Source: Clostridia bacterium
GTDB lineage: Bacteria > Bacillota_A > Clostridia > TANB77 > CAG-508
DNA length: 8,736 nucleotides
Reading direction: 5' to 3'
Assembly: GCA_017621295.1 (NCBI GenBank)
Contig: JAGATI010000164.1
Location: forward strand, 1-8,736
Shown here: one piece after another, positions 26 through 8,463 of the stretch
How the letters are laid out: each line of letters begins with the position of its first letter
Numbering within the stretch: the stretch's first letter is position 1
Program-made: the position numbers and the translations under genes
The notes under the pieces: generated by a model
Told to the model about the DNA's origin: nothing
The model's input: only the letters and a program-made list of their open reading frames with translations
Databases searched by the model: none

Positions 26-92
26 TTAAAGTTTTTTTTATTTGAAAAGTGTCAAACTCCCGTGTTCCTACAGTATAACCTTTTGTATTCAT
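15..92 (-). CDS. Possible 25-residue peptide of unknown function
   Basis: This minus-strand reading frame starts at ATG 92-90 and stops at TGA 17-15, giving a peptide that begins MNTKGYTVGTREF and ends KKTLKAL. A GAGGAAG ribosome site lies just upstream of the ATG, and the stop codon falls in the loop of the terminator at 1-25, so the frame is bracketed by expression signals. The peptide is polar and basic at its C-terminus, with no membrane segment or cysteine motif, and I recognise no family. It lies downstream of the excisionase-like gene, where an integrase gene would normally begin in Tn916-like elements, but it does not look like an integrase start. It could be chance or the relic of a longer gene. 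Confidence 0.3.
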   Translation of the reverse strand: MNTKGYTVGTREFDTFQIKKTLKAL

Positions 93-242: not shown

Positions 243-440
243 TTATTCTGCCATAATTCTTTTATGGCTTAGAAATTCATTTAAACAGTCAGCTTTTATC
301 CAAAACTTTCTGCCTATTTTAATACTTGGGAAATCTTCTTGATGAAATAACTGTAAGCATTTTTGTTTTCCTATATGCAATAATCTGCATACATCATCTG
401 TTGAGTATAATTTTATCTCAATTTCTTCTAAATTCTGCAT
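243..440 (-). CDS. Excisionase-family small HTH DNA-binding protein
   Basis: This 65-residue protein looks like a small excisionase/MerR-type winged helix (HTH_17 class). The helix-turn-helix spans about residues 11-32 (LYSTDDVCRLLHIGKQ, then CLQLF). A typical wing, FPSIKIGRKFWI, follows at 37-48, and a short helix (LNEFL) closes the fold. In integrative elements such proteins bind near the ends and steer integrase toward excision; some act as transcription regulators instead. I chose ATG 440-438 because a very strong GGAGAGGAGG site (458-449) lies just before it. A TTG-initiated frame from 476 would add 12 residues that include that site. Its promoter is at 480-509. No integrase gene is visible within the 242 bases downstream. 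A homologous but truncated copy lies at 5153-5254. The DNA-binding call is firm; the excisionase role is inferred. Confidence 0.8.
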   Translation of the reverse strand: MQNLEEIEIKLYSTDDVCRLLHIGKQKCLQLFHQEDFPSIKIGRKFWIKADCLNEFLSHKRIMAE

Positions 441-479
441 AATTTTTACCTCCTCTCCTTGACAATCATTTTCCAATGT

Positions 480-615: not shown

Positions 616-1719
616 ATGCGAAAATTACCTCAATATTCCTTTAACGAGGGATTTTACATATGGTTTGATGTCGATTCTAAAGAAGAATACTATTCAACAC
701 CTGTATATATGTATAAAACTGATTTTAATGATGATTTAGAAAATCATAAAAGAAGAATCGTTCAAGAAAAAGATTTTTATAAAAAGAAACCAAGTAAAAA
801 AGACTCAGCACAAAAACACCCAGCCACTATTCTTTACCCCTTCGCTGAACAGTTTGGAAGATTTTTAATCAGTTTATTAAATGCAGACTTTTCAAGTTTT
901 AATACTGCTTATGATACATTTTTCTATTTGTATGGATTCGAATTATTAAAAGAATATACTCCTGATAAAGAATTAATGAATACATATTCAACAGAAGAAG
1001 AACTAATAAAAATAATGAAAATGGTATATGAGAACAGTTATGGATATTTAACAGATATACAATATAATTTTAGAAGATGTGTAGATTTCATATATAATCT
1101 AAATGGAAACGAAGAATTAAAAGACTGTAAACCAACTTCAAAATTGACAGCCTCATTAGTTACTCATCATAACGATGTTTATACATATTCAAGTAATATA
1201 GAGGTTATTTTAGATACATATTCAGATAAATACTTAAAATATGGTAATCAAACAATAGAAAAACTAACTAGAGAACTAGATAAAAATGACTCTTTTATAA
1301 AAATGACTAATGTATATACAAGTGAAAAATTAAGTAATATTGCTTTTGTAGTATTAGAGCAATTTGTAAAAAACTCTAATTTACCAATAAAAAGATGTCA
1401 ATATTGCAATAGATACTTTATTCCAGCAATTAGGCAAGATGAACTATACTGTGATTTACCAAATGAAGATGGAAAACTTTGTAGAGAAAAAGGAGCAAAA
1501 CAAACATATAAACAAAACCTAGAAAAAATTCCTGCTTTACTAGAATATAGAAAAGCATATCAAAAGAAATTTATGGAAGTTGCTAGAAGTGATAATAACA
1601 AAAAATTGAAAAAAGATTTTGACAGTTGGAAGAAAATTGCACAAAGTAAGATAAAAGATTATAAACAAGGAAAAGTTACAGAAGATGAGTTGTATAAATG
1701 GATGATAGAAAATAAGTAA
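616..1719 (+). CDS. DUF6076-type zinc-cluster protein, first gene of operon
   Basis: This 367-residue soluble protein has no signal peptide or membrane segment. Its recognisable part is C-terminal. A treble-clef-like cluster CQYCNRYFIP (C261, C264) continues to C279 (ELYCD) and C289 (KLCREKG), then a basic, helical tail rich in lysine, tyrosine and glutamine. I associate this spacing (CxxC-x14-C-x9-C, then CREKGA) with DUF6076, a family without an assigned function; the zinc binding is inferred. The N-terminal 250 residues are mostly helical, with no motif I know. ATG 616 has an AGGGGGA ribosome site 7 bases upstream. An upstream frame from 554 lacks such a site and runs in another frame. It is the first of three co-directional genes, ending 17 bases before the ATPase start. 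It may be a nucleic-acid sensor or regulator for the nuclease pair downstream, which is inference. Confidence 0.75.
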   Translation: MRKLPQYSFNEGFYIWFDVDSKEEYYSTPVYMYKTDFNDDLENHKRRIVQEKDFYKKKPSKKDSAQKHPATILYPFAEQFGRFLISLLNADFSSFNTAYDTFFYLYGFELLKEYTPDKELMNTYSTEEELIKIMKMVYENSYGYLTDIQYNFRRCVDFIYNLNGNEELKDCKPTSKLTASLVTHHNDVYTYSSNIEVILDTYSDKYLKYGNQTIEKLTRELDKNDSFIKMTNVYTSEKLSNIAFVVLEQFVKNSNLPIKRCQYCNRYFIPAIRQDELYCDLPNEDGKLCREKGAKQTYKQNLEKIPALLEYRKAYQKKFMEVARSDNNKKLKKDFDSWKKIAQSKIKDYKQGKVTEDELYKWMIENK

Positions 1720-1736
1720 TAATGGAAGGTGTTCTT

Positions 1737-3530
1737 ATGAAATTAAAAAACGTAACAATTAATAATTATAAATCATTTGGAGAAGAAGACAATTTCTTAT
1801 TTACTGATAAACTAAATGTAGTCATTGGTAAAAACGAATCAGGAAAATCTAATATAATAGATGCTTTAGCAAATATAAATAAAATTGGTTTTACAGATAA
1901 AAAGTATTTCATTCCTAAGAATAGAAAAACTAATAAAGATATTAATATATTGTTAAACTTTGAAACATATAAAAATGAAAAAACATTTTATGGATTTCAA
2001 GGTAATGCTCATATAGAATTAAAATCTTATGGCAATTATTTACTTTCAGGAGATTTGTCAGAATTTATATCAAATAATGAAAAATATAACTCTCTCTTAA
2101 GCCAGATTGAAGAATTAAAAAAAATAGGTATATTTTTTCAAAATCAAAGTTCTAAAACTACCTTTAATGAAATGCTAGAAAATTTAAACTGTGCTAGTAC
2201 TAATATATTTGTTTACTATAATACCTATGAAACAATTCTAAATTCATTAAAAAGAACAAATAACGAAAATTATATTAATATAGCTAATTTGATAGAGGAG
2301 GCTATAAACTTTCTTCAAAGTTTATATAACAATTTTCCAAATTTTATTAAAATAGAAGATATAATGTTGAGCTCAAAATATAATACGCAAGATATATTAG
2401 AAGATACACTATTAGCAAAATTTTTATCAATATGTAATATAGATATTGAAGAATTAGTTGAAAAAATGAACTCAACTGATATAGCAGATGTAAGAAATTA
2501 TGAAAGAGATATAAATAGTAATATAAAAAATTATTTTACAAACGAATTTAATAATTTTTATAGCCAAGAAAATGTTGAGATAGAACTTGCAATCAACTCA
2601 AAAGAAATTAATATCATGGTAGACACGACACAGCGATATTTAGATTATGATGAAAGAAGTAATGTGCTTAAATGGTATATAAGTGCATTCATACAATTAC
2701 AGTATATGGAAAAGAATAATACAAAATCAACTAAAAATAATATAATTTTAATGGATGAACCTGGAGTTTATTTACATGCTAATGCTCAAAAAGAAGTCAC
2801 AAAGCTATTTTTAGATTTAATAAAAAATGAAAACCAGATAATTTATACAACGCATTCTCCATTTATGGTGGATATTGACTCTATACAAAATGTTAGAACT
2901 ATAATTAAAGATGAAACTGGTTTGTCACACATATATAATAAAATTACAACTGTTCCTACAAGTTCTAAATCTACATATGACACAATTACACCTTTAACAA
3001 ATGCACTAGGATTAAATTTAAATTATAACGTTGGACCAAATTTTAATAAAAAAAATATAATTGTAGAAGGTGTATCAGATTATTTCTATTTACATGGATA
3101 TTATAAAAGTAAAAATATTAAGAATGTGCCTAATATTATACCTTCTACTGGTGGAAATAATATACCTGCTATTGCGTCAATACTATTTGGATGGAATTGT
3201 GATTTTAGTATATTATTAGATCAAGATAGCAAAGGGCATTCAATATATAATAGTATTAATGATTCTAAACAACCATTTATAGATAAAATTTTATTTATAG
3301 ATGGAGATACAAAAAAGCATTTAGAAAAGGATTTTGAAATAGAAAATGTTTTTTCTGATAGTGATAGATTAAAATTTGGAATTACAGAAGAAGACTATTC
3401 AGACAATAAATATAATTATTCTTATATAACATATAACAAAATATTATTGAATGAGGATAAATATGATAAGGAAACAATTCAAAGATTTGACAATTTAGTT
3501 GAAAACATTAATATACAAAGTAAAAAGTAG
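1737..3530 (+). CDS. OLD-family ATPase/TOPRIM endonuclease
   Basis: This 597-residue, full-length OLD (overcoming lysogenization defect) type protein fuses an ABC/SMC-like ATPase to a C-terminal TOPRIM nuclease. In order: Walker A GKNESGKS at about 31-38 after a typical YKSFG start; a helical insertion to about 300; a degenerate signature region (ERSNVLKWYISAF, about 316-328); Walker B ILMDEPG with D340/E341; and the switch histidine in YTTHSPF (H373). The TOPRIM acidic residues appear as VEGVSD (E444, D448) and LLDQDSKG (D495, D497). OLD proteins are metal-dependent nucleases, and GajA of the Gabija antiphage system belongs to the superfamily. I chose ATG 1737 because AAGGTG lies 7 bases before it; ATG 1722 would add five residues and swallow that site. 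No UvrD-like GajB partner is present. The stop codon directly abuts the DUF3800 gene. The domain call is firm; a defence role is inferred. Confidence 0.9.
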   Translation: MKLKNVTINNYKSFGEEDNFLFTDKLNVVIGKNESGKSNIIDALANINKIGFTDKKYFIPKNRKTNKDINILLNFETYKNEKTFYGFQGNAHIELKSYGNYLLSGDLSEFISNNEKYNSLLSQIEELKKIGIFFQNQSSKTTFNEMLENLNCASTNIFVYYNTYETILNSLKRTNNENYINIANLIEEAINFLQSLYNNFPNFIKIEDIMLSSKYNTQDILEDTLLAKFLSICNIDIEELVEKMNSTDIADVRNYERDINSNIKNYFTNEFNNFYSQENVEIELAINSKEINIMVDTTQRYLDYDERSNVLKWYISAFIQLQYMEKNNTKSTKNNIILMDEPGVYLHANAQKEVTKLFLDLIKNENQIIYTTHSPFMVDIDSIQNVRTIIKDETGLSHIYNKITTVPTSSKSTYDTITPLTNALGLNLNYNVGPNFNKKNIIVEGVSDYFYLHGYYKSKNIKNVPNIIPSTGGNNIPAIASILFGWNCDFSILLDQDSKGHSIYNSINDSKQPFIDKILFIDGDTKKHLEKDFEIENVFSDSDRLKFGITEEDYSDNKYNYSYITYNKILLNEDKYDKETIQRFDNLVENINIQSKK

Positions 3531-4211
3531 GTGATTAAGATAAAACGAAGACTTAATATCTTTATAGATGAAAGTGGAGACTTTGGCTTTATAGGAGGTA
3601 GTTCGGAATTATATGCAGTATCTTTTACAATACATGAAAGTGATAATCCTATAACAAATGAATTGCAATATTTAAATGATAGCCTAAATAAGCAAAACTA
3701 TAATGGAATGTTACATTTAGCCTATTTAATAGCGAAAAGAGATGACTATTCTTCATTTAATTTAGAACAAAGACAGAAAATATTTTGGACAATCTTTAAT
3801 TTTGCGAGAAAAGTACCTGTAAAATTAAAAACAATAATATTAGATAAAAGATATATGAATAGCAAAAGTCAATTAAATAAAGCTATATCCATTGAAATAA
3901 ATAAATTCATAAAAGAAAATCAAAGTTATTTTAATTCTTTTGAAAAAATCGTTATCTATTATGATAATGGCCAAGAAACTTTAGCAACAATACTTGATAT
4001 TGTTTTTGCTACTAATGAAAGGGTTGAAAGAAGAATTGAATTTGATCACACTAAAAAAAGACTATTTCAAGTATCTGATATGCTAACATTTATTGATAAA
4101 CTAGATTACAAATTTCATAATAATATACCATTTACTAAAGCAGAAAAATATTTCTTTACAAATAAAGAAATTGAATACATAAAAAGAAAATTAAAAAATA
4201 AGAGATTATAA
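3531..4211 (+). CDS. DUF3800 domain protein, last gene of operon
   Basis: This 226-residue protein carries the DUF3800 hallmarks: an N-terminal beta strand ending in an acidic motif (NIFIDESGDFGF, about residues 9-20), a central strand with an acidic end (KIVIYYDNGQE), and a C-terminal QVSDMLTFIDKL helix with a conserved aspartate. The family is thought to have an RNase H-like fold with acidic active-site residues, so a nuclease role is plausible but unproven. The GTG start at 3531 immediately follows the TAG of the ATPase, which implies coupled translation. The best anti-SD match, AGGTGAT, overlaps that GTG instead of preceding it, so initiation may rely on ribosomes terminating at the ATPase stop. 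The rare codons ATT/ATA just downstream cannot be excluded as starts. A terminator begins at the stop codon. With the OLD nuclease it forms a tight two-gene unit. Confidence 0.85.
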   Translation: MIKIKRRLNIFIDESGDFGFIGGSSELYAVSFTIHESDNPITNELQYLNDSLNKQNYNGMLHLAYLIAKRDDYSSFNLEQRQKIFWTIFNFARKVPVKLKTIILDKRYMNSKSQLNKAISIEINKFIKENQSYFNSFEKIVIYYDNGQETLATILDIVFATNERVERRIEFDHTKKRLFQVSDMLTFIDKLDYKFHNNIPFTKAEKYFFTNKEIEYIKRKLKNKRL

Positions 4212-4237
4212 AAAGCCATTCGTTTGAATGGCTTTTT
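4210..4237 (+). terminator. Terminator of the DUF6076/OLD/DUF3800 operon
   Basis: A perfect 12-bp stem (AAAAAGCCATTC / GAATGGCTTTTT) with loop GTTT overlaps the stop codon of the DUF3800 gene. The T-run forms the 3' arm end. Confidence 0.9.
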
Positions 4238-4300
4238 GCGACGACTACCGTCAGCGCGGGTCAGGTCCTACTTAAGCTAAAACTATTTCAGACCCAGTAA
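4238..4300. other. Short GC-rich patch between operon terminator and cupin gene
   Basis: The first 28 bases (4238-4265) hold 20 G or C, against roughly one in four in the surrounding DNA. There is no reading frame of note. Weak pairing is possible between GGGTC (4258-4262) and GACCC (4291-4295). It starts exactly where the operon terminator ends, so it may be a junction remnant from the GC-richer DNA that brought the cupin gene. I cannot assign it a function. Confidence 0.4.
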
Positions 4301-4353
4301 ATAATATTATTTATAATATATATTATTCATTTCTATAATCAAATTATACACTA

Positions 4354-4388
4354 TTTTTTTGAAAATGTACATAGTTTTTTCAAAAAAA
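4354..4388. promoter_or_regulatory. Inverted repeat just upstream of the cupin promoter
   Basis: Perfect 12-base arms TTTTTTTGAAAA (4354-4365) and TTTTCAAAAAAA (4377-4388) flank an 11-base centre containing TGTACA. The right arm ends one base before the -35 box of the cupin promoter, a usual place for a regulator site. The arms are nearly homopolymeric, so chance in AT-rich DNA is possible. Confidence 0.35.
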
Positions 4389-4457: not shown

Positions 4458-4844
4458 ATGAGCAATATGATTAAGACTATCGAGCTTCCAGAAGAATTTA
4501 TTGCTGGAACAGCTGAAGCAAGTTCCTATCGGTTTGGAGGACCTAAGGTAGAAAAAAGTACACTTGAAGGTATTGATGAAATACAATATCTGTACGTGGC
4601 ACCTCGGACTTCCATTAAGATGCATGGACATGACAATCAATGGGAAGTGTGGGCAAGTATCTCCCATAAAACCGCTCATATATGTCTTATAGGCGAAGAA
4701 CATGAGTTGGTAAACAATAGCGGGGCAATGATGCTTCTCATGGCAATTAAAGGTCATATTAATTATTCATATGATGACCTTGCAGAACTTTTTTACAAGT
4801 GGGGATTCTCCGTAACACACGGCTCTCTGGTAGTCAATGACTAA
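4458..4844 (+). CDS. Small single-domain cupin-like protein
   Basis: This 128-residue cytosolic protein is probably a small beta-barrel of the cupin type. Cupin motif 1 appears as MHGHDNQWE (H56, H58, E63), matching the HxH-x4-E metal-binding pattern. A second conserved-looking segment, GEEHELVNNSG, offers H82 as a possible fourth ligand. The substrate cannot be read from the sequence; such proteins can be isomerases, dioxygenases or ligand sensors. The start is clear: a near-perfect AAGGAGG site lies 7 bases before ATG 4458. It is monocistronic, with its own extended -10 promoter and a terminator at 4883-4915. Sampled 60-base stretches run about 40-45% G+C, far above its neighbours, with codons such as CGG and GGG that the others avoid. 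That indicates recent transfer from a different host. The fold call is moderate; the function is unknown. Confidence 0.7.
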   Translation: MSNMIKTIELPEEFIAGTAEASSYRFGGPKVEKSTLEGIDEIQYLYVAPRTSIKMHGHDNQWEVWASISHKTAHICLIGEEHELVNNSGAMMLLMAIKGHINYSYDDLAELFYKWGFSVTHGSLVVND

Positions 4845-4915: not shown

Positions 4916-4926
4916 TAACTTTATAT

Positions 4927-5152
4927 TTAATATTCTAATTCATCTTCTTTTTCTTTCTTTTCAAATTTACTTATATCAAGTTGTTTCTCAAAATTAAAGT
5001 TAGTGTATATGTTTCTTTTTCAAAATTCCTTATAAGGTCATCCTCAGAAGGATATGAGAATTTATTACATACCCAAGTAATAAACTTTTGAACTGTAATT
5101 TTAAATCTATCAATAACTTTCTTTAAATAATTGTTTTCTTTTTCCAATTTGT
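4927..5152 (-). pseudogene. C-terminal remnant of a second MobV relaxase
   Basis: The minus-strand frame from about 5153 encodes INKLEKENNYLKKVIDRF, then ITVQKFITWVCNKFS and LIRNFEKET. About half its residues match the C-terminal tail of the relaxase at 6929-8101 (LENENRKLHNVIDRF, ISKFIKWVCYKFG, IIRDFEREN). Near 4996-5010 the homologous frame is lost. It resumes one frame over with an acidic-basic tail (KQLDISKF...DELEY, stop TAA 4929-4927), like the charged tail of the other copy. No catalytic region is present. It is therefore the frameshifted stub of a related mobilization gene, not an active protein. Upstream it is joined to a truncated excisionase-like gene. Confidence 0.75.
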
Positions 5153-5254
5153 TTATAATCTTCTGAATAGCTCTAAACAAGTTTGATTACCTATATTTAG
5201 TGCTTTTCTAATATCTTTTGTTTCTAAAAATACAATTCCATTAAGTGTTTTCAT
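5153..5254 (-). pseudogene. Truncated second excisionase-like HTH gene
   Basis: The minus-strand frame from ATG 5254-5252 has a good AAAGGAG site (5269-5263) and encodes 33 residues (MKTLNGIVFLETKDIRKA, then LNIGNQTCLELF) before TAA. It aligns with the helix-turn-helix of the gene at 243-440 (YSTDDVCRLLHIGKQK, then CLQLF), with about 10 of 20 core residues identical. It then breaks off where the wing (FPSIKIGRKFW) should begin. Just past the break, the adjacent sequence becomes relaxase tail in another frame. Promoter, ribosome site and start codon are intact, so a short helix-turn-helix peptide may still be made. It most likely reflects a deletion fusing two genes of an older element. Confidence 0.7.
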
Positions 5255-5481: not shown

Positions 5482-6024
5482 ATGTTATATAATTATAGTG
5501 AATTATTAGCTAAATATCAAAGCGATTATCAAATAAAAAAAGCTGTTAATAAGAAAGAAATATATAAAATAGAAAAAGGGATATATTCAGATGTTCTTAG
5601 TGTTCATTATTTGGAAATTATAAATAAAAAATATCCTTATGCTGTAATAACTTCATTTTCAGCATATTACTATTACAACTTAACAGATGTTATTCCAGAT
5701 AAAATATATTTATCTACAGATAGAAATAATAGAATGATTTATTCTAATAAGATAAAGCAAATTCGTATGAAAGATGAATTATATAATCTAGGAAAAACAC
5801 AAATTGAATATGAAGGAATAAAAATAAATATATATGATAAGGAAAGAATGCTAATTGATTTAGCTAGAAATAAGAATCAAATAGGATATGATTTATACAA
5901 AGAAATAATTGCAAATTACAGAAAACAAGTAACTACACTAGATACACAAAAGATAGAAGAATATTTACAATACTTTGTAAATGGAGATAAGATTTTTGAA
6001 ATAATACAAGACGAGGTGTTTTAA
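5482..6024 (+). CDS. abiEi: AbiEi antitoxin and transcriptional repressor
   Basis: This 180-residue protein is the antitoxin of a type IV AbiE toxin-antitoxin/abortive-infection system. The N-terminal winged helix-turn-helix is visible at about residues 5-36 (YSELLAKYQSDYQIKKAV, then a wing with KIEKGIYSD). The AbiEi core follows with VITSFSAYYYYNLTDVIP (about 55-72), a KIYLSTDRN strand, and the C-terminal signature YDKERMLIDLARNKNQIG (about 118-135). In studied systems AbiEi represses the operon by binding promoter repeats and counteracts AbiEii without forming a stable complex with it. The start is supported by GGGGGAAG 7 bases upstream and by the promoter/operator immediately before. The stop overlaps the toxin start by one base (TAATG), giving coupled translation. 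It is somewhat shorter than the longer AbiEi proteins but seems complete. Confidence 0.9.
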   Translation: MLYNYSELLAKYQSDYQIKKAVNKKEIYKIEKGIYSDVLSVHYLEIINKKYPYAVITSFSAYYYYNLTDVIPDKIYLSTDRNNRMIYSNKIKQIRMKDELYNLGKTQIEYEGIKINIYDKERMLIDLARNKNQIGYDLYKEIIANYRKQVTTLDTQKIEEYLQYFVNGDKIFEIIQDEVF

Positions 6025-6845
6025 TGGATATATATGAAGCTGTTAATAAGTACATACAATCAGGTTATTCAGAAGACGATGCTATTCCAAAAGTAGCACA
6101 AGATATTATTTTGCTTAAAATTGGAAATAGCAAATATAGTAAAAATATAACCATAAAAGGTGGGGTTGTAATGCATAATATTTCTAAAGATATGCGTCGC
6201 GCCACACGAGATATGGACATAGATTTTATAAAATATTCTTTAGAAGATAAATCTATTCGCGAATTTATAAAAGAATTAAATAATGTAGATGATGGCATAA
6301 AAATTAAAATAGTAGGAAAAATTGAACCATTACATCATCAGGATTATGACGGAAAAAGAGTATATATACAATTAACAGATAAAAATAAATATTCTATAAG
6401 TTCAAAATTAGATATTGGAGTACATAAATACTTTGATATAGAGCAGGATGAATATTATTTTGATTTTAGTATCATAAATGAAAGTATTAGCTTACTTATA
6501 AATTCTAAAGAACAGATTATTGTAGAAAAGCTTAAATCCTTATTAAAATTTGGTATTACTTCTACTAGATTTAAAGATATATTTGATTTTTATTATTTAA
6601 TAAATAATGAAAATATAAATAAGGACAAGCTTATAAAGTACATAGATGTATTAATTTTTAAAGATGAAAAAATGAAAGAAAAAACAATAGAAGATATTAG
6701 TAAAAGACTCACAAGCATTTTAAACAACAGCAGATTTCAGTCAAGAATAAATACTGCGAATAATAATTGGTTAGAAGTACCAATTACTGACGTTATTACT
6801 AACGTTTTAGAGTTTTTTAGTGGATTAACTAAAATTGTGTCTTAA
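6024..6845 (+). CDS. abiEii: AbiEii nucleotidyltransferase toxin
   Basis: This 273-residue AbiEii/AbiGii-type toxin has the nucleotidyltransferase fold. Motifs in order: KGGVVMH (about 45-51) with RATRDMDID (59-67, acidic D63/D65/D67); SKLDIGVH (127-134) with the third acidic residue D130; KEQIIVEKLKSLLKFG (162-177); and STRFKDIFDFYYL (180-192). All expected catalytic positions are present, so the toxin seems intact. The family blocks growth, probably by adding nucleotides to a cellular RNA; related enzymes modify tRNA. The ATG shares its A with the antitoxin stop, and a GAGGTG ribosome site lies within the end of abiEi. A strong convergent terminator follows at 6869-6917. The system can both stabilise the element and protect the host against phage. 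Confidence 0.93.
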   Translation: MDIYEAVNKYIQSGYSEDDAIPKVAQDIILLKIGNSKYSKNITIKGGVVMHNISKDMRRATRDMDIDFIKYSLEDKSIREFIKELNNVDDGIKIKIVGKIEPLHHQDYDGKRVYIQLTDKNKYSISSKLDIGVHKYFDIEQDEYYFDFSIINESISLLINSKEQIIVEKLKSLLKFGITSTRFKDIFDFYYLINNENINKDKLIKYIDVLIFKDEKMKEKTIEDISKRLTSILNNSRFQSRINTANNNWLEVPITDVITNVLEFFSGLTKIVS

Positions 6846-6868
6846 ACCATATTTAATATAAAAAATTA

Positions 6869-6917
6869 AGTTATCGACCATTTTTAAGTACATACTGCTT
6901 AAAAGTGGTCGATAACT
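6869..6917. terminator. Bidirectional terminator between abiEii and the relaxase gene
   Basis: Two 20-base arms (6869-6888 and 6898-6917) pair at 19 of 20 positions around a 9-base loop. On the plus strand a T-rich tail GTCTTTTTG follows; on the minus strand AATTTTTTATAT follows. It serves both convergent genes. Confidence 0.9.
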
Positions 6918-6928
6918 GTCTTTTTGAA

Positions 6929-8101
6929 TTACATTTCTTCCTCATCTTCTTGCTCATCAGCTATTTGTTTATATGGATCAATATAAGTATTATTTTCTCT
7001 CTCAAAATCTCTTATAATTTGATTGGAATTGCCTAAACCAAATTTATAACATACCCACTTAATAAATTTACTAATAGTTATATAAAATCTATCAATTACA
7101 TTATGCAATTTACGATTTTCATTTTCTAATTTTTCATATTTATTTTCATATTCAAGTTCCAGCTCAATAGATTTATTTTTGTATTCACATTCTAGTTTAT
7201 CAATTTTATTGTGCAAAACTTTATTATCGGAAATAATAGCTGTACGTTCTATTTGATATCTTTCTGCTTCATCTACAATATTTGTCTGCCTTGAGAGTTC
7301 CTTATGTAAGGCTTTATTTTCTTTATATAGTTGTTTTATCATATCATCTTTAGGTTTTATAATATCATTCAAAATTTTCTCATTTTTATTAAACATTATT
7401 TTTTTCAAATCTTTTATATTAGTTTCTTCAGGAATATCATAGGTTATACTTTCTACTAATTCTTTTGCAACTTCAAAATTAGTTAATTCTTTATATTCTT
7501 TTATATCAAGATGTTGTCTGTTAGTTTCTTCTTTTGGTAATCCTCTTAATAAATTAAAATTATGAGATACCATATAATTATAAAAAGCATTTTGTAATTC
7601 TCTATAACTATCTTTGCTCTTCCAAAATTCACTACAAGCAAGTTTATCAATTTTATTTCCTTTTTTATCTGTTGTATGAACTACTGGTAAAAAAACAAGG
7701 TGCATATGTGGAGTTTACTCGTCCATATGTACCTGTGCAGACATTATATAATTTTCACCTAAATTTTTATATTTAGCTACAAATCTATATGCTGTTTCAA
7801 AATATCTTTTTGTTTCAGCTTCTCCAATGCTAACAAAGAACTCTTTATCTGATGTAATTATATATTCACAAGCAATATTACTAACTGTTTTAATTTGTCC
7901 TTTTAAATTATATTCTTCTTTTAATCTGTCAAATTCTTTTTCATAACTATACATAGGCTCTTTTAAAGCGTAGTTTAGATATGATTTTTCTTTATCTATA
8001 TTTTTATTGGAATAGTTGAAATTTTTTCTTTCATTATGACGATATATTCCTTTAAGATTTTCTCTTTTGTATTTCACATTTCTTATAATAGCGTAACTCA
8101 T
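6929..8101 (-). pseudogene. mob: MobV-family relaxase interrupted by an in-frame stop
   Basis: This is a plasmid mobilization relaxase of the MobV (Pre/Mob, pMV158 MobM-like) family, which nicks oriT and pilots the strand during conjugation. ATG 8101 follows an AAAGGAGGTG site (8120-8111); the frame extended to 8185 lacks one and runs through oriT. Motif I is YRHNER with H22, the position of the catalytic histidine in MobM, followed by YSNKNID. The metal-binding motif reads VHMDE, then TAA at codon 129 (7717-7715), then TPHMHL in the same frame; related proteins have one residue there. The rest is intact: about 389 codons in all, with a long coiled coil (about 225-330) and the tail FIKWVCYKFG. 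One base change would restore it. No ribosome site precedes ATG 7705, so reinitiation is unlikely. I call it a recent pseudogene unless the stop is read through. Confidence 0.9.
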
Positions 8102-8153
8102 TTTTATATGCACCTCCTTTATAATTGACTTTTTTAGAAACACATTGCAAGAA

Positions 8154-8183
8154 ATTTTAGCCTTTCTTTGTATGTGTTGTAAC
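8154..8183 (-). promoter_or_regulatory. Probable relaxase promoter overlapping oriT
   Basis: On the minus strand, GTTACA (8183-8178), an 18-base spacer and TAAAAT (8159-8154) form a moderate promoter whose -35 begins at the presumed nick site. In pMV158 the mob promoter also overlaps oriT, so the relaxase represses its own gene. Here the box match is only 4 of 6 at -35. Confidence 0.5.
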
Positions 8184-8229
8184 ACACTACAACACTTTTA
8201 TTGCCAATAGCAAAAAAGTGTTAGTGTGG
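8174..8229 (-). other. oriT, pMV158/MobV type
   Basis: Read on the minus strand, the exact pMV158-type nick motif TAGTGTG/TTA occurs with the nick expected between 8183 and 8182. It lies in a hairpin whose 8-base arms GTGTTGTA (8195-8188) and TACAACAC (8181-8174) surround the loop GTGTGT, the same architecture I know for pMV158 oriT. A second, overlapping repeat pairs CACACTA-ACACTTTT (8228-8214) with AAAAGTGT-TG-TAGTGTG (8199-8183), a 15-bp stem with a 2-base bulge, and holds a further TTGC/GCAA stem in its loop. The two foldings are mutually exclusive, as in pMV158. It lies 73 bases upstream of the relaxase ATG, on the relaxase sense strand. All parts seem intact even though the relaxase is not. 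Confidence 0.85.
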
Positions 8230-8231
8230 CA

Positions 8232-8463
8232 GGGAATACCCTACAACCCCAAAACACAAATTTCGTTTATTACTCAATTTATGTTTTAGCCAAAATTGTT
8301 ATCACAATTTTGGCAAGTAGAGGTAAAAAAATTTTTTCCCTCTACATAGAAAAAGCAGACCTGCTTTTTCTAATTCACTTCATTTTGAAATGAAAAATAA
8401 AACAAGTTTATGAAGTGAATGGGGTAGTTATATTATTTTTATATTAAAATTGAATATAACTAC
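8232..8463. repeat. Chain of hairpins beside oriT, possible single-strand origin
   Basis: Almost every base here lies in an inverted repeat. Arms: GGG/CCC (8232-8234, 8239-8241); 8251-8262 with 8276-8287 (one mismatch); 8289-8298 with 8305-8314 (perfect, GCCAAAATTG); 8317-8323 with 8339-8345 (perfect, plus an A-run/T-run core); 8347-8358 with 8361-8372 (perfect 12 bp, 2-base loop); 8373-8382 with 8411-8420 (perfect); 8424-8434 with 8453-8463 (perfect 11 bp). No reading frame of note crosses it. The 8347-8372 hairpin could also be a terminator. The layout resembles lagging-strand (sso) origins of rolling-circle plasmids, which fold only as single strands. I cannot identify a known sso class, so that role is inference. 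Confidence 0.6.

Follow-up and report, generated by a model that had tools for sequence, protein, structure and literature searches.

An OLD-family gene as probable exchangeable cargo of a small mobilizable element in gut Clostridia

The window analysed here, an 8,736-nucleotide stretch of contig JAGATI010000164.1 from a Clostridia bacterium, carries three co-directional genes at positions 616-4211, encoding a DUF6076 protein, an OLD-family ATPase/TOPRIM protein and a DUF3800 protein. A sequence-only reading of the window proposed this trio as one defence operon, in which a DUF6076 sensor would act with two nucleases. Rechecking of the ORFs, their order, strand and spacing confirmed the layout, with 17 bases between DUF6076 and OLD and 0 bases between OLD and DUF3800. 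The observation is real and more general than proposed, but different in kind: we consider it quite probable that the trio lies in the defence-cargo slot of an integrative mobilizable element (IME), headed by DUF6076 as a backbone gene, filled by OLD as an exchangeable payload, and closed by a structured RNA gene. Rather than forming a fixed immune system, the trio probably contains, in OLD, an anti-phage-type gene that can be exchanged for other cargo of the slot. The proposal of a dedicated three-part system fails because DUF6076 is a backbone gene of the mobile element and the cargo that follows it varies; DUF3800, for its part, also occurs without either partner.

The probable cargo slot and the element that carries it

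Genome contigs were scanned with a DUF6076 alignment, and the best 80 of the 164 stretches confirmed in this way yielded 79 loci, whose source records name Clostridia, Clostridium, Clostridiaceae, Clostridiales, Eubacteriales and Lachnospiraceae, and in one case Erysipelotrichaceae. Ten loci form the clade of the window (L001-L008, L010, L016), with DUF6076 at least 69% identical to that of the window compared with at most 59% for the next locus; L001 and L002 are nearly the same. In 8 of the 10 loci compared at the DNA level (L001, L003-L006, L008, L010, L188), homology with the window ends at positions 1714-1729, at the DUF6076 stop codon (1719), and in L007 and L016 it runs on to 1770 and 1774, about 50 bases into the cargo. 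In several loci the cargo gene opens with a ribosome-binding-like sequence a few bases from this stop codon.

The genes placed directly after DUF6076 in the sister loci include known or candidate defence systems, so that the position of the trio is one at which such systems recur. PADLOC models matched a fused AriAB in L006 (1.3e-135) and L016 (1.7e-140), 72% identical to each other, a type-VI-like retron reverse transcriptase (RT) in L010 (RT_VI, 1.8e-81), and a PDC-M04A/B pair in L007:2898-4158 (2.2e-88, 1.6e-55), consisting of another DUF3800-type protein and a 176-aa protein. Together with the window, a known or candidate defence family occupies 5 of 10 slots, a raw count in which L001 and L002 were counted once. 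Schlafen-type cargo in L003 and L008, which matched only the pAgo model (~1e-30) and gave weaker matches besides, was left out of this count.

The modules of the window have different nearest relatives, indicating that the operon was assembled by module exchange. The DUF6076 gene is 95% identical in DNA to that of L001 and 83% to the partial gene of L010, and the DUF3800 gene is 74% identical to that of L001 and 92% to that of L010, while the window OLD gene has no DNA match in the ten loci compared. Among 22 genomes picked as DUF6076 carriers, 16 hold 2-5 copies, so partners for homologous recombination reside in the same cell, and cargo may be swapped by recombination in the shared flanks of such elements.

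The co-occurrence check suggested with the sequence-only reading went against a dedicated trio, as the three families were rarely found together in the material searched. Window-type OLD is present in none of the 79 DUF6076 loci, three of which (L032, L040, L055) break off just behind DUF6076. L046 and L048 encode a distant OLD-type protein of 637 aa (83 bits to the OLD profile; in L046 25% identical over 275 aa), and in L160, a further DUF6076 locus, the adjacent 494-aa protein gives a weak OLD match (45 bits). In single-protein searches of 287 genomes of the order, DUF6076 was found in 76 and DUF3800 in 40 (both E<=1e-20), and OLD in 3 (E<=1e-40, 32-37% identity), a search in which at most four candidates were scored per genome and some may be missed. 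None of the three OLD-bearing genomes has DUF6076 or DUF3800 within flanks of at most 1.5 kb.

Gene clustering of the 79 loci and the window (80 in total), in which many contigs are cut and all counts are lower bounds, revealed a backbone in the order integrase, HTH_17 Xis-like gene, often a gene of ~160 aa, DUF6076, variable cargo, and a MobV relaxase gene on the other strand. The integrases fall into cluster F3 in 46 of the 80 loci (representative, a tyrosine integrase) and F5 in 23 (representative, a serine recombinase), and the Xis-like genes into F4 (35/80) and F11 (9/80). The ~160-aa gene (F1; for example L012:1930-2391, minus strand) lies beside DUF6076 in 61/80 loci and in none of the window's clade, and its representative has no Pfam match. 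Cluster F2, in 52/80 loci, mixes 57 MobV with 9 RepA_N genes.

A check of 15 sources for the sequence TGGTCG[AG]GG revealed nine elements bounded by it on both sides (L001, L003, L004, L006, L008, L188, L189, L221, L231), all of them except L221 carrying DUF6076. The distance between the repeats ranges from 5.3 kb (L221) to 11.4 kb (L189). In L003, L004, L006, L008, L189 and L221, a tRNA-Pro(TGG) gene has its 3' end in the right copy; ARAGORN, run on L001 and L188 but not on L231, detected no tRNA in those two. We take the 9-base motif, scored without a shuffle control, as the att repeat because it coincides with the tRNA-Pro 3' end. Beyond L001 lies another integrase gene, which apparently belongs to a tandem element.

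With integrase, Xis, relaxase and att repeats on one unit, the sister elements have the anatomy of an IME. No T4SS families were found among the proteins scanned, most element genes lying outside the scan. In the window the integrase is truncated, MobV is interrupted and no att repeat was seen; it holds part of a small IME of gut Clostridia, which by analogy with its sisters would use the tRNA-Pro(TGG) site. Its features are as follows.

63..92, minus strand: N-terminal remnant of a tyrosine integrase, ~10 codons (blastn of 63-117 to L001 7373-7427, within and beside the L001 integrase, 6098-7402, minus strand)
243..476, minus strand: HTH_17, excisionase-type (Xis-like) gene, divergent from DUF6076 (Pfam HTH_17 3.4e-7)
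616..1719, plus strand: DUF6076 gene, element backbone, heading the cargo operon in a conserved position (Pfam PF19553 4.8e-10)
1737..3530, plus strand: OLD-family ABC-ATPase/TOPRIM cargo gene, most likely Class-1-like (AAA_15 7.7e-27; PADLOC; TsOLD 6p74)
3531..4211, plus strand: DUF3800 gene with GTG start, encoding an RNase-H-fold protein; semi-conserved and last in the slot
4204..4339, minus strand: predicted structured RNA gene, tail-to-tail with the cargo operon (cmsearch with model R1, 141 bits, with the window itself among the 17 sequences of the model; covariation; strand test)
4210-4237, minus strand: terminator-like hairpin of the RNA gene, overlapping the DUF3800 stop codon (4209-4211)
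4343..4371, minus strand: promoter-like site of the RNA gene, TGTACA-17-TATAAT (10/12 positions match)
4458..4844, plus strand: 128-aa gene, also in L001, L002 and L005 (cluster F19; no match in the Pfam scan)
4920..5180, minus strand: C-terminal fragment of MobV, a second partial copy (blastn to sister MobV regions)
5482..6845, plus strand: AbiEi/AbiEii pair, a second defence-type cargo module between two MobV pieces (PADLOC 1.3e-64, 3e-106)
6929..8185, minus strand: MobV (Mob_Pre) relaxase with an in-frame stop between 7705 and 7715 (Mob_Pre 3.6e-6 and 1.1e-25 for the two pieces)

The Xis-like gene belongs to cluster F11 (9 loci including the window) and scores 28.0 bits (2.1e-6) with TIGR01764, against a cut-off of 28.8; the N-terminal MobV piece scores 77.6 bits (1.3e-21) with NF041497, against a cut-off of 100. 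The MNTKGYTVGT of the integrase remnant recurs near the L188 integrase start. Integrase homology ends at 63 and bases 1-62 match none of the compared sister loci, indicating that the element is truncated or rearranged at the left edge of the window. The accessory setting and the AbiE pair named in the sequence-only reading are both supported; the pair lies 1.3 kb downstream of the trio with other genes between, rather than beside it. AbiE is flanked by the interrupted MobV and the partial MobV C-terminus at 4920-5180, and seems to have come with a duplication or recombination of mob. By eye, inverted repeats at 8180-8270, upstream of the MobV start, form a possible oriT.

As in the MobV IMEs of Firmicutes, Tn4451/Tn6215 (PMC5704250), a MobV relaxase is combined with a cargo gene, and Firmicutes IMEs with one tyrosine integrase are described in the same source as integrating at tRNA 3' ends, among other sites. 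The window-type elements have a tyrosine integrase, RepA_N, DUF6076 and defence-type cargo, whereas Tn4451 has a serine integrase and a resistance gene. Their slot resembles the hotspots of P2 and P4 (Rousset et al. 2022, PMC9122126), where defence genes swap between conserved mobile-element genes, with PARIS in P4 and old in P2. The host differs, being a MobV/tyrosine-integrase IME of Clostridia and neither phage nor satellite, and so do the borders, since the slot begins at the DUF6076 leader and, in the window's clade, ends at the structured RNA gene.

The proteins of the trio

The OLD protein most likely starts with MKL at 1737, as M1, K2 and L3 are nearly invariant in relatives; a longer start at 1722 is also open. 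The reported completeness of the protein held, with Walker A, D340-E341, H373, E444 and D495/D497 invariant in 30 aligned sequences. Walker A is GKNESGKS (residues 31-38), and its lysine is K37 in MKL numbering; K32, previously named as the Walker A lysine and mutation target, is another lysine of the same motif. In Pfam, the protein matches AAA_15 (7.7e-27) and, at 22.4 bits (1.8e-4), just below the cut-off of 23.2, OLD-like_TOPRIM. The defence-family scan recommended with the sequence-only reading bore out its assignment to a defence-type family, with PADLOC matches to AriA (1.4e-27) and Old (3.6e-27) for the OLD protein and to both AbiE genes.

These features point to a Class-1-like OLD protein as the most likely assignment. 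Like the Class 1 proteins P2 Old and TsOLD (6p74; PMC10568477), the window OLD is a single chain that unites an ABC ATPase (Walker A/B, His switch) with the acidic residues of TOPRIM. As in that class, the Pfam scan of ten window proteins showed neither a helicase nor an RT next to it, and its closest sequence match in the PDB is TsOLD (2.4e-14). It differs in setting: the review describes Class 1 OLD as single genes away from candidate defence genes, whereas the window OLD lies in an operon with DUF6076 and DUF3800, 2 kb from AbiE. Other OLD systems were considered and set aside. Gabija (Class 2) requires an adjacent GajB UvrD-like helicase and retron-associated OLD (Class 3) an adjacent RT, neither of which is among those ten proteins. 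For PARIS, the AriA ATPase model matches, but no DUF4435 (AriB) was found with Pfam.

The DUF6076 assignment was upheld by Pfam and by four cysteines (C261, C264, C279, C289) invariant in 31 sequences, which suggest a metal site. Fold searches gave no usable match, and the family is absent from the literature searched.

The DUF3800 protein, confirmed as such by Pfam (8.5e-6), is translated from a GTG directly after the OLD stop codon, and has a nuclease-like RNase-H fold. This much of the two-nuclease idea is supported; the trio as one system is not. The same family lies downstream in 7 of the 10 clade loci (L001, L002, L004, L005, L006, L010, L016), separated from DUF6076 by cargo of 297 aa (L001, L002), 208 aa (L004), 531 aa (L006), 99+330 aa (L010) or 527 aa (L016), or by nothing (L005), and in other elements DUF3800 heads cargo of its own. 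Searched to E 0.1, PADLOC returned nothing for the window protein, and BLASTP showed no meaningful similarity between it and the DUF3800-type protein of L007. PDC-M04 (M04A + M04B), the pair found in L007, was ruled out for the window on the former ground. A second type of IME, with a distant MobV, DUF3800, variable cargo, the RNA gene and TnpV, is seen in L171, L173, L175, L177 and L181, with a serine recombinase upstream in L173, L175 and L177.

In our reading, DUF6076 heads the slot as a backbone gene, and the sister loci show exchangeable cargo placed directly after its stop codon. We propose that, on phage infection, OLD would attack nucleic acid under control of its ATPase, probably through the TOPRIM metal site, which would protect both host and element. 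This proposal draws on the complete motifs, the lack of a helicase or RT neighbour, the closeness of TsOLD and the class properties given in PMC10568477. DUF3800 would serve as an RNase-H-fold accessory nuclease not tied to OLD.

A probable convergent structured RNA gene

Downstream of the slot, a conserved segment of ~185 bp is found in the DUF3800 loci; L003, L007 and L008 share it despite having no window-type DUF3800. Read on the minus strand, it consists of a promoter-like site, a structured body (a gene of ~135 nt) and a hairpin with a T-run over the DUF3800 stop codon. The shared terminator of the sequence-only reading corresponds to this hairpin, which is present after DUF3800 at 4210-4237, although the terminator scan listed none there, probably because the T-run lies inside the stem. 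Promoter-like sites number 7 in the AT-rich 351-base stretch, against 2.7 expected, and of the upstream stretches printed for 47 RNA places, 36 contain TATAAT and 11 do not. The 47 places are not all independent; L002, L237, the second L010 copy and the second L188 match were dropped as near-duplicates or as weak or opposite-strand matches.

RNAalifold on 28 sequences, of which the short forms are imperfectly aligned, gave 18 pairs, of which 11 change on both sides. A structure drawn for 17 long-form sequences pairs in 97.2% of cells (91.4% when shuffled), with 9 pairs changing on both sides (4.4 shuffled) and a covariation score of 0.252 (0.142 shuffled); sliding the partner leaves at most 47% paired. 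The number of further pair types (20, against 17.0 shuffled) is less clear, being reached in 17 of 500 shuffles. Because it was drawn from the same 17 related sequences, the structure has an advantage in this comparison; its first helix and the terminator barely vary. Apart from the terminator it comprises three helices, and in two of these both sides have changed. The minus strand is favoured as RNA by the excess of G-U over A-C cells (37 to 4), and 97.2% of cells pair on this strand compared with 90.0% on the other.

With a model of the 17 sequences, the RNA is detected in the window and in each of the 10 clade loci (L010 and the window themselves are in the model), and no match at E<=0.1 appears in the other 69 DUF6076 loci, many of them cut contigs. 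The RNA is present in 19 of 20 longer DUF3800 regions (L170-L189), the exception being L174, where the contig ends soon after DUF3800. At E<=0.01, 39 of 191 genomes searched within the order carry it; a search of 299 genomes across the phylum, run at E<=1e-4 with stricter filters, returned it from none but the centre genome. By eye, 21 of 40 RNA places (E<=1e-6) have a DUF3800 match, in some cases a fragment, within ~4 kb on the same contig. A convergent gene is on the contig at 44 of the 47 places (19 DUF3800, 3 Schlafen-type, 22 others), within 150 nt of the RNA in 39 and within 12 nt in 29.

We conclude that a conserved, probably transcribed RNA gene closes the slot at its far end in the window's clade. 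It may act as a terminator companion, as a regulator of the element or as part of cargo capture. No Rfam family, including the DUF3800 motifs, matches the RNA at E<=1 in the window and 18 loci. The gene is thus apparently undescribed by comparison with Rfam, a comparison that does not extend to the unnamed candidates of PMC8040213. Like the Rfam DUF3800-I and -IX motifs (PMC11701678, PMC7657543), it is a structured RNA near a DUF3800 gene; it gives no match to them at E<=1, and it also adjoins cargo genes without DUF3800.

Variants of the RNA are the 182-nt tandem chimaeras at L001:10708-10889 and L005:2017-2198, which join the long form to the short one, and an additional copy at L010:4131-4233 that scores lower (47.5 bits). 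Schlafen AlbA_2/HATPase-type cargo recurs beside the RNA gene (L003:9531-11021, L008:10021-11508, L222:6919-8407).

Alternative readings and significance

A true three-component system, in which a DUF6076 zinc-cluster sensor activates the OLD and DUF3800 nucleases, would account for the tight operon and its shared hairpin. The AriAB of L006 and L016, also of the ATPase-TOPRIM type, and the distant OLD-type proteins of L046, L048 and L160 stand at the same position, and DUF6076 could accordingly be a shared accessory of such effectors. We nevertheless regard this reading as very improbable, as DUF6076 also precedes RT, Schlafen-type and unknown genes or DUF3800 directly, the window-type OLD is missing from all sister loci, and the modules have different nearest relatives. 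A two-gene OLD-DUF3800 system with DUF6076 as mere backbone fits the 0-base gap and the RNase-H fold, and DUF3800-type proteins have defence links elsewhere: one is the PDC-M04A candidate defence component of L007, and TPR-DUF3800 proteins are linked to Cas12a2 in PMC10910872. We think this improbable too, since members of this DUF3800 family are also found behind AriAB, an RT, unknown genes or DUF6076 itself and head other cargo elsewhere, and since the window protein lacks a PADLOC match and is unlike the L007 protein.

It is also conceivable, but in our view unlikely, that the 3' segment is a DNA site, attC-like or a terminator with flanking repeats, rather than an RNA gene. Like a cassette recombination site, the segment lies right against the stop codons of cargo genes that are unrelated to one another; such closeness is normal for a terminator too. 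Its transcript is a predicted one and some upstream stretches lack TATAAT, but the promoter-like box in the majority of places, the G-U excess, the helices beyond the terminator with changes on both sides, and sequence subtypes that by eye look linked to element type favour an RNA. A bolder version of the slot, as a dedicated defence cassette-exchange site bordered by the leader stop (DUF6076 or DUF3800) and the RNA, with the RNA and/or DUF3800 acting in cargo capture or swapping, would resemble integrons, where attC and the integrase do this, and differ in its RNA-linked mechanism; we hold it to be a long shot.

Several points weigh against the IME defence-cargo slot that we favour. The 5/10 count has no control set; the cargoes of L001 (297 aa), L004 (208 aa) and L008 (296 aa) match no PADLOC family at 1e-5, the slot of L005 holds no cargo gene between DUF6076 and DUF3800, and among 50 cargo proteins drawn from DUF6076 elements in general there are transporters and other products. 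The slot model leaves the retention of DUF6076 and the RNA gene unexplained, and with its truncated integrase and missing att repeat the window may be a decayed element. As to function, the 2023 review PMC10568477 gives P2 Old against lambda as the only Class 1 OLD known to protect from phage; P2 old-tin jointly gave broad protection (Rousset et al. 2022, PMC9122126). For E. coli ybjD, a Class 1 OLD, a 2026 paper reports that the ATPase is essential and the TOPRIM domain dispensable, which speaks against the TOPRIM cleavage step of the proposed mechanism.

Variable defence slots in mobile elements are already known from P2/P4, and the newest part here is the structured RNA that faces the operon at the far end of the slot; it supplies a covariance-supported RNA family. 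The contents between DUF6076 (or DUF3800) and this RNA, such as the 297-, 208- and 296-aa proteins, can serve as bait for new defence genes, with the warning that such operons are not to be taken for fixed multi-gene systems. These elements illustrate how small mobilizable DNA in gut Clostridia can package and exchange defence genes.

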